From the NCBI GenBank assembly GCA_902588315.1, contig CACIOP010000005.1, forward strand, positions 22,279 to 86,278: a DNA stretch of 64,000 bases. Reading direction: 5' to 3'. The notes under the pieces were generated by a model. The model worked only from the letters and a program-made list of their open reading frames with translations, was not told where the DNA came from and searched no databases. Position 1 is the first letter of the stretch. The number at the start of each line of letters is the position of its first letter. Positions 28,978 to 61,782 of this stretch are shown piece after piece. Made by a program: the position numbers and the translations under genes. Source of the DNA: an uncultured Pelagibacteraceae bacterium (GTDB taxonomy: Bacteria; Pseudomonadota; Alphaproteobacteria; Pelagibacterales; Pelagibacteraceae).

Positions 28978-29913
28978 ATGAACAACATTAAAAAAGTTGG
29001 ATTATCAGCTCTAGCTGGTTCTCTAGTTGCAATGTCAGTAAATGCTGCAGAAATGACAGTTACTGGTGGCGCATCAATTACTTTCGCTGATTATGGTGCA
29101 GATATTACAAACAACGCTTGGTCTTCAGGTGATGGTTTAACATTTGCAGCATCAGGTGAACTTGATAACGGTTTAACTGTATCTTCGTCATACACATTAG
29201 ACAGAGGTGTTTTAGATGACTACTCTGTATCTATCGCGACTGAAGGAATGGGAACAATTACATTCCATGGTTTAGATGGATCTTCAGCTTTAGGTGCTGT
29301 TGACGATGTTATGCCAACTGCTTATGAAGAGCCATGGTTTGGTGTAACTTCACCTTCAAAAGTTGATGGTAAAGCATACGACGATATGTTCCAGTATGTA
29401 TCTCCAACAGTTGCAGGTGCTACAGTAACATTAACTTACAATCAAGCTGACACAACTAATTCAGATGATTCATTAACTTCAATGGCGATTGCATTATCTC
29501 CAGAAGCTATTGATGGATTAACAATTGGTTATGCTACTCAGGACGATGATTCTGGTGCAGCAACGGCTCACGTAAGTGACACTACTATGTATGTTAAATA
29601 TGTATATGGTGCAGCTACATTAGGTTACCAAATGTCAGATGCTGACAGTGCTACTGATTCTTCAGATGGTGAGTCTGTAGGTTATGGTATTTCTTATGCA
29701 GTATCAGATGAATTATCTATTTCATATGGTGCGCATACTTACGAAACACCAAATGACTCTACTGATAAAGATCAAGAAGCTTCTGCGATTTCAGCTTCAT
29801 ACACTTCAGGTGGTATGACAATTTCTGCAGCTGCAGGTAGCGTTGATAACGTAGGTGGAACAGATGCTACTGACAGAGATACTTACGAGATCTCTATGTC
29901 ATTTGCATTCTAA
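28978..29913 (+). CDS. outer-membrane porin
   Basis: Signal peptide 'MNNIKKVGLSALAGSLVAMSVNAAEMTVTGGASITFADY', alternating amphipathic beta strands, C-terminal 'YEISMSFAF' ending in Phe; strong SD AAAGGAG upstream. Confidence 0.9.
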   Translation: MNNIKKVGLSALAGSLVAMSVNAAEMTVTGGASITFADYGADITNNAWSSGDGLTFAASGELDNGLTVSSSYTLDRGVLDDYSVSIATEGMGTITFHGLDGSSALGAVDDVMPTAYEEPWFGVTSPSKVDGKAYDDMFQYVSPTVAGATVTLTYNQADTTNSDDSLTSMAIALSPEAIDGLTIGYATQDDDSGAATAHVSDTTMYVKYVYGAATLGYQMSDADSATDSSDGESVGYGISYAVSDELSISYGAHTYETPNDSTDKDQEASAISASYTSGGMTISAAAGSVDNVGGTDATDRDTYEISMSFAF

Positions 29914-29935
29914 TTCATTTTAGAAGTACAAATTT

Positions 29936-29968
29936 AAAAAGGGCCCCTTCTGTAGGGGCCTTTTTTTT
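29936..29968. terminator. rho-independent terminator after the porin, possibly bidirectional
   Basis: AAAAAGGGCCCCTTCTGTAGGGGCCTTTTTTTT; GC stem GGCCCCT/AGGGGCC with an 8-T run; A-tract on the other side. Confidence 0.95.
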
Positions 29969-54563: not shown

Positions 54564-56108
54564 TTGAAAAATAAATTTTATATTGAAGTAATTTATTTAA
54601 TTTTATTAGGAGTGCTTACTTCCTTAAGTTTGCCTCCATTTAATTATGTTGTAATAAATTTTTTAACTTTTAGTTTATTCTATATATTTTTAATAAAAAA
54701 AATTGAGTTTTATAAAAATAAAAGAATATTTTTTCTTTATGGTTGGTTATTTGGGTTTGGTTATTTTGTAAGTAATTTATATTGGATCTCAATATCATTA
54801 ACGTTTGATCAAAATTTTAAGTTTTTAATACCTCTTACAATAATATTAATACCTGGTTTCTTAGCCATGTTTTATGCTTTAGTTTCTTATCTATTTGTGG
54901 TTTTAAAACCAAATAATAATTTAAGCTCATTTTTTCTTTTTTCTTTAATATTTGGAATAGTAGAATTTGTGAGAGGATCAATACTCACTGGTTTCCCTTG
55001 GAATTTAATTGCTTATAGTTTCTCTAATCAAATAGAAATTTTAAACATTACATCAGTCATAGGCACATACAGCTTTAATCTTTTCTGTATTTCATTATTT
55101 ACAAGCCCATCAATATTCATTTTAAGAGAGAATAAAAAAGAAATTAGTATTTGTGTTGCATTTCTTATTACAACAATGTCATTTTATATACTTGGTTCAC
55201 AAAATTTAGAAAAATTTAATAATCAACAGATAAAAAAACTTGATTATAAAATAAGAATTTTAAGTTCAAATATAGGCATAGATAGATTTTATAATAATAT
55301 TGATCCAATAACTGCAATAGAAGAGCTAATTGAAATCAGTTCTCCTAAAAAAAATCAAAAAATAATTTTTATTTGGCCAGAAGGTATTATTCCAGGTATT
55401 TCACAAGACCAACTAAAAGAATACAAATGGTTATTTGAAAATAAATTCAACAAAAATCATTTATTAGCAATTGGGATTAATAGCAAAAAAGATGTAAATA
55501 AAACTATTAAATATTTTAATTCATTATCTATTTTTGACTATGACCTTAATGTAATAAATGCATATAACAAAATTAATCTTGTCCCTTTTGGAGAATTTTT
55601 ACCTTTTGAAAAATTATTAAAAAGTATTGGCTTAAAAACAATCACTAATGACTACCAATCATATTCAAAAGGTGAAGAAAGAAAAATAATTGATCTGAAA
55701 TATAATGATTTATCAGTTAAAATATTACCCCTTATTTGTTATGAGATAATTTATTCAGGTAAAATTTTCTCAAATAATAACTTTGATTATATTGTAAATA
55801 TTTCAGAAGATGGCTGGTTTGGTAAATCAATTGGACCAGAGCAACATTTAACTCATAGTATTTTTAGAGCGATAGAAAGTGGTAAATATGTTTTAAGGTC
55901 TGCAAATAATGGGACAACAGCAATTATTAATCCATTAGGAGTTATTGAGCAAAAAGTTGATATAAATAAATCAGGTTATATTGATTTAATTGAGTCAAGA
56001 AAAATTGAGATGACTCTATTCGCAAAGTTTGGAAATAAAATTTTTGGATTAATAATTTTATTGTATATTTTTTTAATATTTTCATTTAAGAAGCTTAGAA
56101 ATGAGTAA
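54564..56108 (+). CDS. lnt: apolipoprotein N-acyltransferase
   Basis: '[13 protein letters not shown]', '[12 protein letters not shown]', '[14 protein letters not shown]', 'ICYEIIYSG'; TTG start. Confidence 0.95.
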
Positions 56109-57270
56109 TTTAAAAAATTTTCTTTTCACTAGTGAGTCCGTTTCAGAAGGCCATCCAGACAAAGTATCTGATAGGATTTCAGATATGGTTGTTGATAGTT
56201 TTATTTCTGGAGATCCATACTCTAGAGTTGCTTGCGAAACACTAACAACAACAAATAAAGTAGTTTTAGCTGGTGAAGTTAGAGGACCAGAAATTAAAAA
56301 AGATGAATTAATTGAAAAAGTAAGAAATTGTATAAAAGATATTGGTTATGACCAAGAAGGATTTACTTGGAAAGAAGCAACAAAAATTGAAAGTCATTTA
56401 CATTCCCAATCAGCTGATATTGCTATGGGCGTAGACTCCTCTGGTAACAAAGATGAAGGAGCTGGAGATCAAGGTATTATGTTTGGATACGCATGTAATG
56501 AAACAGATGTTTTAATGCCAGCACCAATTCATTATTCTCATAAAATTTTAAGATTGATGGCGGAAGACAGAAAGTCAGGAAAGTTAAAAAATATTGAACC
56601 AGATTCAAAAAGTCAGGTAACATTTGAGTATATTGATGGAAAACCTTCAAAAGTAAAATCTGTAGTTATCTCTTCACAACATTCACCAGATGTTAATCAA
56701 TCGCAAGTCAGAGATTTACTCAGACCTTATATGTTAAAGTCTATTCCTGAAAATTTTCTTAATGGTTTTAACGAGGATGAGTTTTATGTAAATCCTACAG
56801 GAAACTTTGTAATTGGTGGTCCAGATGGAGATTGTGGTTTGACAGGTAGAAAAATTATTGTTGATACTTATGGTGGAGCCGCACCTCATGGTGGTGGTGC
56901 TTTTTCAGGAAAAGATCCGACTAAAGTTGATAGATCAGCAGCTTATGCTGCAAGATATATTGCAAAAAATGTTGTTGGTTCTAAAATTTCTGAAAAGTGT
57001 TTAATTCAGTTAGCTTATGCAATTGGCGTATCAAAACCATTATCTATTTATGTCGATTTATTTGATAACGATCTAGATAAAAATAAATTTGTTGTAGAAA
57101 AGATTAAAGAAAATTTTGATTTGAGCCCTAGAGGAATCAGAGAAATGTTGAATTTAAATAAACCAATATATGAAAAAACAGCCGCTTATGGTCATTTTGG
57201 TAGAGTACCTGAAGAAAATGGGTCATTTTCATGGGAAAAAACTGATAAAACTAACGTTTTTTCTAAATAG
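56101..57270 (+). CDS. metK: S-adenosylmethionine synthetase
   Basis: '[21 protein letters not shown]', '[12 protein letters not shown]', '[19 protein letters not shown]'. Confidence 0.98.
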
Positions 57271-57276
57271 TTTCTG

Positions 57277-57304
57277 TTGAATTAAAAAAAAACTTTACTA
57301 TATT
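57277..57304 (+). promoter_or_regulatory. candidate sigma-70-like promoter of nusA
   Basis: TTGAAT (57277-57282) - 16 bp - TATATT (57299-57304). Confidence 0.5.
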
Positions 57305-57327
57305 GCAACTACATTATTGAACTTTAC

Positions 57328-57354
57328 AAAATGGGCTTTAGCCCATTTTTTTTT
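57328..57354 (+). terminator. intrinsic terminator/attenuator in the nusA leader
   Basis: AAAATGGGC-TTTA-GCCCATTTT followed by further Ts to 57354; GGAG Shine-Dalgarno starts immediately after at 57355. Confidence 0.8.
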
Positions 57355-57369
57355 GGAGCAAACAAAATT

Positions 57370-58923
57370 ATGTTAAATAAAAGAGCAGATAAACTTGAAT
57401 TATTAAGAATTGCTGAAGCTGTAGCATTAGAAAAAGCAATTGATAAAGAACTAATTATAAGTTCTATGGAAACAGGTATTGCTAAAGCTGCAAAATCAAA
57501 ATTTGGACAGGAAAATGAAATAAAAGTTTCTATCAATAGAGACAACGGAGATATTGAGCTTTATAGAAAATTGATAATTGCCGAAAATCCTGAAAATACA
57601 AATACCGAGATAAGATTAGAGGATGCAATTAATTTAAATCAAATAAATAAAGACAAATCCATTGGTGATGAAGTATTACAGCCACTTCCTTCATTTGATT
57701 TTGGAAGAATAGCTGCGCAAACAGCAAAGCAAGTAATAAGTTTTAATGTGAGAGAGGCTGAAAGAGAGAGACAGTTTAATGATTTTATTGATAAGAAAGA
57801 CACAATTTTAAGTGGAATTATAAAGAGACTAGAATTTGGAAATGCAATTGTTGATTTAGGAAGGACTGAAGCAATAATCCAAAAAAATGAATTGATCCCT
57901 CGTGAAAACATTAAAGCAGGTGATCGTATAAAAGCTTATTGTTATGATGTCAGAAGAGAACCTAGAGGGCAACAAATATTTCTATCTAGAGCTCATCCTA
58001 AATTTATGGAAAAACTTTTCGTTCAAGAAGTTCCCGAAATCTATGATGGATTAATAGAAATTAAATCTTCTTCAAGAGATCCCGGAAGTAGAGCTAAAAT
58101 ATGTGTGAAAGCTGTTGATACTTCTTTAGACCCAGTCGGAGCATGTGTGGGTATGAGAGGTTCAAGAGTTCAAGCTGTAGTTAATGAACTTCAAGGGGAA
58201 AAAATTGATATAGTTAATTGGTCAGAGGATCCTGCTATTTTGGTTTCAAATGCGTTATCCCCTGCAGAAGTTCAAAGAGTTAACGTTGATAGTGAAAGAA
58301 AAAAACTTGATGTAATTCTTACTGAGGAAAATTTAAGCAAAGCAATTGGAAGAAGAGGTCAAAATGTAAGACTTGCAACCAAATTATTAAATTTTGAAAT
58401 TAATATAATGACAGATGCAGAGGATTCAGAGAGAAGACAATTGGAATTTAAAGAAAAAACAGAAAATTTTGTGAAAAATTTGGAGTTAGATGAAACACTA
58501 GGTCAGTTACTTGTTGCCGAGGGTTTTTCAACTATTGATGATATAAAAGATAGTTCAGCTGAAAATTTGATGAAGATCGAAGGTATAGAAGAAGACACAG
58601 CTAAAGCGTTAATAGAAAGAGCTAAGGAGTTTCACGAAAAAGATCAGGAGGATATTTCCCAGAGAATTAAGGAATTAGGTCTTGAAGATGCCTTAATTAA
58701 TTTAAAAGGATTAACTCCAGGAATGTTAGTTACACTTGGTGAGCAAAAAATTCTAAGTTTAGAGGATTTTGCAGACTTAGCATCTGATGAATTAACTGGT
58801 GGTTATGATGTAGTTAAAGGCGAGAGAGTGAAAATCCAAGGTTATCTGGAGGATTTTGCTTTATCTAAAGAAGAAGCGGATGAACTTATTATGTCTGCCA
58901 GAAACATTGTTTATAAAGATTGA
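57370..58923 (+). CDS. nusA: transcription termination/antitermination protein NusA
   Basis: 'MLNKRADKLELLRIAEAVALEKAIDKELII', 'VGACVGMRGSRVQAVVNELQGEKIDIVNWSEDP', KH domains; start moved to the ATG at 57370. Confidence 0.97.
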   Translation: MLNKRADKLELLRIAEAVALEKAIDKELIISSMETGIAKAAKSKFGQENEIKVSINRDNGDIELYRKLIIAENPENTNTEIRLEDAINLNQINKDKSIGDEVLQPLPSFDFGRIAAQTAKQVISFNVREAERERQFNDFIDKKDTILSGIIKRLEFGNAIVDLGRTEAIIQKNELIPRENIKAGDRIKAYCYDVRREPRGQQIFLSRAHPKFMEKLFVQEVPEIYDGLIEIKSSSRDPGSRAKICVKAVDTSLDPVGACVGMRGSRVQAVVNELQGEKIDIVNWSEDPAILVSNALSPAEVQRVNVDSERKKLDVILTEENLSKAIGRRGQNVRLATKLLNFEINIMTDAEDSERRQLEFKEKTENFVKNLELDETLGQLLVAEGFSTIDDIKDSSAENLMKIEGIEEDTAKALIERAKEFHEKDQEDISQRIKELGLEDALINLKGLTPGMLVTLGEQKILSLEDFADLASDELTGGYDVVKGERVKIQGYLEDFALSKEEADELIMSARNIVYKD

Positions 58924-58933
58924 GTGATGAGGT

Positions 58934-61153
58934 ATGGAAAAAAAAACAAAATTAACTATTTCAGGCTCAGCCAAAAAATCAATAAAGAATATTGAGATTG
59001 CTAAATCTCAAGGAAAAAATTCTGTAGTAATTGAAAAACAAACTGGAAAATTCTCGAGTAGAGGAGGATCATTAAGATCTAGTACGAATAAGCTAAGAAC
59101 AAACTCAACTTTCAACAGAGTAACACCATTAAAACCTTCATTTAATCCTAAATCACCCTCTATAACAAACGATTTTGAAAAGAGAAAACTAGCAGAGCAA
59201 AGAGCTACAAAGCGACTTAAAGGAGATAGTGAAAATAAAGATAGAAAAACTTTAAAAACAGGAACAAAAAAAAGAGAGCTAAAGTTAACTGTATCAAGAG
59301 CACTAAGTGATGAGATTGATGCAAAACAAAGAAGTTTAGCATCAGTAAAGAGAGCAAGACAAAAAGAAATTAAAAATGCTACAAAAGATGATACTCAAGA
59401 AAATTTAAAACCGATTAAAAGAGATGTTAATATTCCTGAAGCAATCACAGTAAGAGAACTTGCAAATAGAATGGCTGAACAATCAAGCAATGTAATTAAG
59501 TATTTATTTGGTATGGGAGTTACTGTGACTATTAATCAAACATTAGCCGCAGATACTGCGGAATTTTTAGTTAAAGAATTTGGTCATAATCCAATTAGGG
59601 AAGAGAAAGCAGAGGAAATAATACAAAAGATAAAAGCTTCAAGAACAGAAAATTTAAAAAATCGACCACCAATAGTTACCGTTATGGGTCATGTGGATCA
59701 TGGCAAAACATCAGTACTAGATGTGCTCAGAAGTGCGAACGTGGTTTCAGGAGAATTTGGTGGAATAACCCAACACATTGGAGCTTATCAAATTGAAAGT
59801 CAGGGTAATAAATTAACATTTATTGATACTCCAGGTCATGCTGCATTTACTGAAATGAGAGCAAGAGGATCAAAATTAACAGACGTAGTTGTTTTAGTAG
59901 TTGCTGCTGATGATGGAGTTAAACCTCAAACAATTGAGTCTATTAAACATGCTAAAGCTGCAAATGTTCCAATAGTTGTAGCAATAAATAAATGTGATTT
60001 ACCAGAGGCAGATACTCAGAAGATAAAAAATCAATTATTAGAGCATGAATTAATTGCTGAAGATTTATCTGGTGATACTTTAATGGTTGAGATTTCAACT
60101 AAAACAAAACAAAACTTAGATAAATTAGTAGAGTCAATAATATTACAAGCAGAGATTTTAGATCTTAAAACGGATTATGAATCTAAAGCTACAGGTATAG
60201 TTTTAGAGTCAAAAATTGACGTTGGTAGAGGTCCAGTTGCAAATATAATTGTAACAACAGGAACACTTAAGAGAGGTGATTTTTTTGTAAGTGGTTTAAA
60301 GTGGGGAAAAGTAAGGGCTATTATTAATGATAAAGGTAAAAATATTAATGAAGCATTACCATCTACTCCTGTTGAAATTTTAGGAATAAATGGTGCAGCT
60401 AAAGCTGGAGACGATTTTATTGTTCTTGATACAGAAAAAGAAGCTAAGACATTGAGTGAAAATAGAGCTCAAGAGAGCAAGGATGGAAAAAATCCAGTAT
60501 CTTTTGCAACTCAAGACTCTGCCTTTTCAGATAAATCTACTGAAGAATTAAATTTAATAATTAAATCTGATGTACATGGATCATCTGAAGCAATTAAAAA
60601 TGCAATTAGTCAAATTAAACATGATGAGGTTAAACCGAAAATAATTTTAGCAGATATTGGAATGGTAACAGAAACAGACGTTACTTTAGCCAAAGCTTCA
60701 AATGCAGTATTAATAGCTTTTAATGTTAAACCAAGTAAAGAAGCAAAAAAACTTGCTGAAAATGAGAAGATTAAAATATCTTCCTACAATATTATTTATG
60801 AAGTTTTAGACTATATTAAACAAAGAATGTCAGGATTATTGGCACCAGATGTCCAAGAGAAAATTACTGGCACTGCACAAATTTTAGAAATATTTAAAGT
60901 TTCAGGTGCAGGTAAAGTTGCTGGCTCAAAAGTAACTGAAGGAGAAATTAATAGTACTTCAGATGTAAGAATCATTAGAGATGGTACTATTATTTATACT
61001 GGAAAAGTTTCAACAATATTTAGAGAAAAAAACCAAGTTAAACAAGTAAGTGATGGTCAAGAATGTGGAATAACCGTTAAAGATTATATGGATTTTCAAA
61101 AAAATGACACAATAGAAGCATTTAGTGTTACATCTACTGAGAGGTCAATTTAA
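58934..61153 (+). CDS. infB: translation initiation factor IF-2
   Basis: 'RPPIVTVMGHVDHGKTSVLDVLRSANVVSGEFGGITQHIGAYQI', 'FIDTPGHAAFTEMRARGSKLTDVVVLVVAADDGV'. Confidence 0.98.
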   Translation: MEKKTKLTISGSAKKSIKNIEIAKSQGKNSVVIEKQTGKFSSRGGSLRSSTNKLRTNSTFNRVTPLKPSFNPKSPSITNDFEKRKLAEQRATKRLKGDSENKDRKTLKTGTKKRELKLTVSRALSDEIDAKQRSLASVKRARQKEIKNATKDDTQENLKPIKRDVNIPEAITVRELANRMAEQSSNVIKYLFGMGVTVTINQTLAADTAEFLVKEFGHNPIREEKAEEIIQKIKASRTENLKNRPPIVTVMGHVDHGKTSVLDVLRSANVVSGEFGGITQHIGAYQIESQGNKLTFIDTPGHAAFTEMRARGSKLTDVVVLVVAADDGVKPQTIESIKHAKAANVPIVVAINKCDLPEADTQKIKNQLLEHELIAEDLSGDTLMVEISTKTKQNLDKLVESIILQAEILDLKTDYESKATGIVLESKIDVGRGPVANIIVTTGTLKRGDFFVSGLKWGKVRAIINDKGKNINEALPSTPVEILGINGAAKAGDDFIVLDTEKEAKTLSENRAQESKDGKNPVSFATQDSAFSDKSTEELNLIIKSDVHGSSEAIKNAISQIKHDEVKPKIILADIGMVTETDVTLAKASNAVLIAFNVKPSKEAKKLAENEKIKISSYNIIYEVLDYIKQRMSGLLAPDVQEKITGTAQILEIFKVSGAGKVAGSKVTEGEINSTSDVRIIRDGTIIYTGKVSTIFREKNQVKQVSDGQECGITVKDYMDFQKNDTIEAFSVTSTERSI

Positions 61154-61521
61154 TGGCAGACAGAATAAGAAAATCATTGTCGCAAAGACAGTTAAGAGTA
61201 GGAGAAATGATTAAGCAGTCTTTAAGCATGATTTTTATAAGAAATGAGGCTAAGGTGCCAAATTTAGAAACAAACACTATAACTGTTACTGAGGTTAGAA
61301 TGAGTCCTGATTTAAAAATAGCTAAAGCATATGTCCTTCCGTTGGGTGGAAAAGATGCGGAGGAAACAATTAGTGTTTTAAAGGAATACTCATTTTTAAT
61401 TAGAAAAATTTTATCACAAAAAGTGGTTATGAAATTTTTACCAAAATTACTTTTTAGAAAAGATGAATCTTTTGAGTATGCGGAAAAAATAGAAAACTTA
61501 ATAAAACAAACAAATAAATAG
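61153..61521 (+). CDS. rbfA: ribosome-binding factor A
   Basis: 'SQRQLRVGEMIKQSLSMIFIR', 'TVTEVRMSPDLKIAKAYVLPLG', 'LPKLLFRKDESFEYAEKIENLI'. Confidence 0.95.
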   Translation: MADRIRKSLSQRQLRVGEMIKQSLSMIFIRNEAKVPNLETNTITVTEVRMSPDLKIAKAYVLPLGGKDAEETISVLKEYSFLIRKILSQKVVMKFLPKLLFRKDESFEYAEKIENLIKQTNK

Positions 61522-61533
61522 GAAGAAAGAGGC

Positions 61534-61782
61534 ATGAATAAAAAGTCACAAGAATTAGCAATGCACGATAAAGATACTGGATCTTCAGAGATACAGATCG
61601 CTTTGCTAACAGAGAAAATTGAAACTCTCTCTAAACATATTAAGCAATTCAAAAAGGATAAACATTCATCTGTTGGATTGTTGAGAGCGGTCAATAGAAG
61701 AAAGAAATTGTTGGAATACCTAAAGAAAAATAAAATGGATTCTTACAAAAATGTACTGTCGAAATTGAGTTTAAGAAAATAG
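61534..61782 (+). CDS. rpsO: 30S ribosomal protein S15 (truncated-looking N-terminus, short form)
   Basis: '[52 protein letters not shown]'. Confidence 0.96.

Follow-up and report, generated by a model that had tools for sequence, protein, structure and literature searches.

A predicted termination attenuator abutting nusA in SAR11 bacteria as a rimP-less variant of the rimP-leader

Regulation of the operon that encodes NusA through termination of its own transcription has been reported or proposed in several bacteria. In B. subtilis, nusA is controlled by NusA-stimulated termination in the leader (PMC12288461), and in E. coli NusA regulates its own operon, with terminators found upstream of rimP (PMC6511841); the E. 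coli regulation is also ascribed to Bylund et al. 2011 in PMC4448216. For the S. agalactiae rimP-nusA leader, RNA-seq placed termination 31 nt after the start, and NusA feedback was proposed (PMC4448216). The general form of this element, the rimP-leader, was described by Naville and Gautheret in 2010 (PMC2965389); it is a short terminator that heads the nusA-infB operon, has a G-rich 5' arm and a C-rich 3' arm (GGGc...gCCC) followed by a T stretch, lacks an antiterminator and lies 4 to 130 nt before the first gene, which is rimP. In that description, RimP was considered and NusA was thought to be the best candidate regulator, while the choice between the two as reader of the leader was left open. 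Meyer et al. 2009, in their account of structured RNAs of Cand. P. ubique, do not mention nusA, and our literature search for Pelagibacter transcription start sites found no paper.

Here, we describe a leader in SAR11 bacteria that shares the general features listed above except for rimP as first gene, and that adjoins nusA directly. It was predicted from a window of 64,000 nucleotides (the whole stretch of DNA that was analysed) of an uncultured member of the Pelagibacteraceae. The relevant features are as follows.

56101..57270, plus strand: metK (S-adenosylmethionine synthetase; Pfam PF00438/PF02772/PF02773), the upstream gene in the genus of the window
57277..57282, plus strand: -35 element TTGAAT (TTGAAT or TTGAAA in 101/105 distinct genus loci)
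57299..57304, plus strand: -10 element TATATT (TATATT in 98/105 distinct genus loci)
57311..57321, plus strand: partly conserved block ACATTRTTGAA at the predicted RNA start
57311..57354, plus strand: predicted terminated leader RNA of about 44 nt, its start placed 7 nt after the -10 element
57328..57349, plus strand: terminator hairpin AAAATGGGC-TTTA-GCCCATTTT with the rimP-leader core GGGC...GCCC
57346..57354, plus strand: T9 tract, starting with four T that pair with the A4 in the 5' arm
57355..57358, plus strand: Shine-Dalgarno-like GGAG, abutting the T tract (its GG present in 92% and 97% of genus loci)
57370..58923, plus strand: nusA (517 aa; Pfam NusA_N, S1, KH_5, HHH_5), first gene of the operon
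58934..61153, plus strand: infB (IF2), named from its translation and position
61153..61521, plus strand: rbfA (PF02033)
61534..61782, plus strand: rpsO (PF00312)

The gene order is thus metK, nusA, infB, rbfA, rpsO and pnp, pnp and infB being named from their translations, and the nusA of the window is 98% identical to its counterparts in named single-cell genomes of Pelagibacteraceae. Between metK and nusA lie 99 bases, in which the promoter is followed by 23 nt and then by the hairpin (9 bp, 4-nt loop), T9, GGAG and the ATG. The stem pairs 57328-57336 with 57341-57349 around the loop TTTA, its GGGC/GCCC core lies at 57333-57336/57341-57344, and it ends 20 nt before the nusA ATG at 57370; infB follows nusA. 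All elements that the original prediction had placed in 57277-57369 were found where it had put them, exact to the base, and its claim that the leader abuts nusA also held. A further ATG at 57331, inside the hairpin, lengthens the nusA frame to 530 aa in the genome of the window and is a wrong start that automatic annotation could pick; we rejected it as the nusA start, as only 74 of 101 genus loci have it in frame and as the second SAR11 family mostly has GTG GGT TAA at that place.

Compared with the general form (PMC2965389), the SAR11 leader differs in that rimP is absent from the genome, in its AT-rich outer stem and in its fixed T9. It resembles the attenuator of the B. subtilis nusA operon in carrying a terminator in the 5' leader of a NusA-encoding operon, for which NusA dependence has been demonstrated in B. 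subtilis and is extrapolated in SAR11 (PMC12288461); according to PMC2965389, B. subtilis has a leader of about 180 nt with rimP first, as against about 44 nt predicted with nusA first. The S. agalactiae leader is, like that of SAR11, very short (PMC4448216), but its operon includes rimP and both its start and its end were mapped by RNA-seq, whereas the SAR11 leader is predicted and without rimP. The Rfam family RF01770, the rimP leader of Gammaproteobacteria, shares the operon and the idea of a terminator with the SAR11 element; the comparison with this model that the original prediction had called for gave 17.0 bits on the plus strand against a cut-off of 47, below threshold, probably because this 102-nt model describes the longer gammaproteobacterial leader. 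In the Rfam search of the window every family fell below its cut-off, including SAM and other known riboswitches, and a permissive search gave sub-threshold matches only. The SAR11 leader is a real rimP-less variant of the known attenuator and not a plain member of the rimP-leader class.

The reading that we favour, with reasonable though far from complete confidence, is a rimP-leader-type attenuator that heads the nusA-infB operon after deletion of rimP and through which NusA exerts negative feedback. RNA polymerase would start about 7 nt past the TATATT box and transcribe approximately 15-17 nt before the GGGC/GCCC hairpin and U tract; a fraction of polymerases would terminate at about 44 nt, and the rest would read through into nusA-infB-rbfA. 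Since NusA stimulates hairpin-dependent pausing and termination, more free NusA would lead to more termination and hence to less nusA mRNA, such that the NusA level itself would be the signal and an antiterminator would be unnecessary; the same hairpin would insulate the operon from read-through from the upstream gene. The promoter, the hairpin with its T tract, their conservation, their tie to nusA and the loss of RimP are supported by the computations. The start site, the termination event and the dependence on NusA are the parts of this model that we infer, NusA feedback in particular on account of the published work on B. subtilis, E. coli, S. agalactiae and the rimP-leader. In folding of the predicted 44-nt leader, the hairpin is the sole fold (-11.4 kcal/mol, z -4.3, none of 200 shuffles as good), and no antiterminator structure forms in these 44 nt.

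Comparative evidence supports the attenuator reading put forward in the original prediction. The 171 SAR11 loci that had an upstream region yielded 149 distinct sequences, namely 105 from the genus of the window, 11 from other genera of the family and 33 from a second family. A GGG...CCC hairpin followed by a T tract precedes nusA in all 149 distinct loci with an intact upstream region, a count to be read with the knowledge that these loci are related by descent, that many genomes are partial and that, while most loci (the genus set, L111-L129 and L161-L180) were picked by the nusA protein, blind to the motif, loci L131-L160 came from a motif search and so carry it by construction. Exactly nine T are present in 147 of the 149. 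Within the 105 genus loci the TGGGC/GCCCA core and T9 show no variation; in the 5' arm, the A4 shows slight variation, mostly from A to G with G-U pairing preserved, and at least 27 different sequences occur in the loop. Across nusA in 100 of these genomes, fourfold-degenerate sites have a mean pairwise identity of 46%, with no invariant site among 118, and invariant runs in the nusA coding sequence reach 5 nt at most; because these sites have diverged in the same genomes, the comparison attributes the invariance of the hairpin to selection and not to recent ancestry. Within the order, 337 of 397 genomes carry the pattern TGGGN{3,6}CCCANTTTTTT, mostly in one copy and with exactly one in the genome of the window, as against about 12 genomes for the reversed control pattern, and several of the pattern-negative genomes have a close variant (GGGCTTAGGCCCTTTT, in genus g7) or are without a full nusA match. 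With approximately one copy per genome, the notion of a generic terminator motif common in the genome was rejected.

The pairing also bears on whether the conserved element acts as RNA. The core TGGGC-N4-GCCCA of AAAATGGGC/GCCCATTTT is a perfect dyad, as would suit a DNA operator for a repressor in place of an RNA hairpin, a reading that we find scarcely credible given that the gap between half-sites varies among alphaproteobacteria, that the T tract is always on one side and that U-G pairs in 11 sequences keep the RNA helix and break the DNA symmetry. When SAR11 is aligned with other alphaproteobacteria, all 65 rows keep the three G-C pairs, and the outer stem covaries among A-U, G-C and G-U (for example, from G-C to A-U in 21 sequences). 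Double-changed cells number 40 as against 14.6 in shuffles, and sliding the pairing partners drops pairing from 98% to at most 65%, counts that lean towards structure since the alignment was fitted to it and contains some opposite-strand matches.

The hairpin could also be a constitutive attenuator or insulator: an unchanging share of polymerases would pass into nusA, transcription arriving from upstream would be stopped, and NusA would exert no feedback; this agrees with a leader that consists of the hairpin and about 17 nt, with no antiterminator or ligand domain visible. We consider such an arrangement unlikely, as the invariant stem sequence and the exact T9 exceed what a generic terminator needs and as feedback by NusA has been demonstrated for B. 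subtilis nusA (PMC12288461). A control from the same genomes points the same way: the terminator of a porin gene (29938-29964) keeps its pairing, while its stem sequence, stem length and tail change among relatives, a contrast with the nusA hairpin that is indicative only because the porin locus evolves much faster. The Porin_4 gene itself lies at 28978-29964 of the window and encodes a protein with only about 33-48% identity in most relatives; apart from the nusA hairpin, its 3' terminator is the one strong intergenic intrinsic terminator that we saw in the 64 kb.

By itself, the promoter consensus is found at about the frequency expected by chance (64 sites in 14 kb as compared to 74 expected from shuffled DNA), and the claim of a promoter therefore needs comparison among loci. 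Taking the best-scoring pair of -35 and -10 elements upstream of the hairpin at each locus, we found the 16-nt spacer of the window in 101 of 105 distinct genus loci. The second SAR11 family has TTGATT-17-TATAGA/TATAAG in 32 of 33 loci, these loci being partly selected by motif. The putative promoter is thus credible through its conservation across loci, where a single sequence would be insufficient. Several positions of the ACATTRTTGAA block (57311-57321) are 89-98% conserved across the genus, and the block is not conserved in other SAR11 genera.

Because metK ends 57 nt before the stem, runs in the same direction and has no terminator in between, the hairpin could simply terminate metK at its 3' end, with a nusA promoter ahead of it by coincidence. 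This explanation is very improbable in view of the second family and of several first-family genera, where a trmB-like methyltransferase gene of about 700-750 nt (identified from its translation) lies between metK and nusA: in these loci promoter, hairpin and T9 remain directly before nusA, so the hairpin is not merely a metK terminator. In addition, both SAR11 families have a conserved promoter ahead of the hairpin. A role as metK terminator only, which the original prediction had named as the outcome that would count against it, is thus contradicted, and these arrangements support assignment of the promoter-hairpin-T9 unit to nusA and not to the upstream gene, as the attenuator model supposes.

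The history of the leader appears to be tied to that of rimP. Profile searches detected RimP_N in none of 61 SAR11 genomes, including single-contig near-complete genomes, and RimP_C in none of 20, while both domains were detected in ten control genomes; a sample of 114 genomes from across the class had RimP_N in 100. Where rimP is present, nusA follows it (30 of 30 alphaproteobacterial rimP loci), and in 23 of these 30 loci outside SAR11 a GGG...CCC hairpin with a T tract precedes rimP-nusA, approximately 50-140 nt before the RimP_N domain and typically as GTGGGC...GCCCAC followed by T's. A covariance model built from ten such alphaproteobacterial hairpins with loops of equal length and from no SAR11 sequence finds its best match in the 64-kb window at the nusA leader (E 4e-4; next 0.5), gives this site the top score genome-wide (21.3 bits vs 14.7 for the next) and ranks the nusA leader first in 10 of 10 second-family genomes searched; as unrelated terminators score equally or higher in several other SAR11 genomes, the model is not fully specific and serves as a supporting, not a conclusive, test of shared ancestry. 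These results bear out the link to rimP-nusA leaders made in the original prediction, and the simplest history would be that the leader of the window is the inherited alphaproteobacterial rimP-leader, which now abuts nusA because rimP is gone from SAR11. Retention of the leader after loss of rimP does not appear to be automatic, since, among eight further alphaproteobacteria that lack RimP and gave a nusA match, three (L214, L215 and L218) keep a comparable G-rich hairpin with a T tract before nusA, and in the remaining five none was seen there by eye. The three keepers come from other families, and rimP loss with a retained leader may have occurred more than once.

The persistence of a frozen hairpin without RimP is the one new point of general interest. 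In abundant, genome-reduced ocean bacteria RimP is gone and the leader is kept almost letter for letter, which suggests that RimP is dispensable for leader function and would argue against RimP as a required ligand or essential regulator; retention points to NusA or another retained factor as the reader. Invariance of the stem beyond pairing is unexpected for generic NusA-stimulated termination, and another factor may read the stem. Strict GGG/CCC conservation suggests sequence recognition, and NusG, a ribosomal or assembly protein or some other RNA-binding protein could accordingly be the reader, with NusA at most a general helper. We regard this as improbable, since RimP, the natural first candidate, is absent from SAR11 while the element persists and since, in the alphaproteobacteria sampled, the constant partner of the motif is the nusA operon. 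Feedback by NusA itself remains our preferred reading, and a bolder form of it can be put forward tentatively: the invariant TGGGC...GCCCA would be a hairpin recognized sequence-specifically by NusA, or by NusA with polymerase, the leader of about 44 nt would be a complete minimal autoregulator with NusA as the sole signal, and SAR11 would show, as a natural experiment, that the regulator is not RimP. With a promoter, about 17 nt, a hairpin, T9, a Shine-Dalgarno sequence and the gene, the predicted leader is among the shortest conceivable attenuators and would suit in vitro studies of hairpin sensing by NusA.

Further downstream in the operon, truB is missing between rbfA and rpsO (61521-61534 of the window), so that rpsO directly follows rbfA. 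Profile searches with TruB_N (PF01509) found no match in six genomes of the genus of the window, five of them near complete, and matches in eight of eight genomes of other SAR11 genera, which marks the absence of this tRNA pseudouridine-55 synthase, as judged from the profile, as a genus-level loss.
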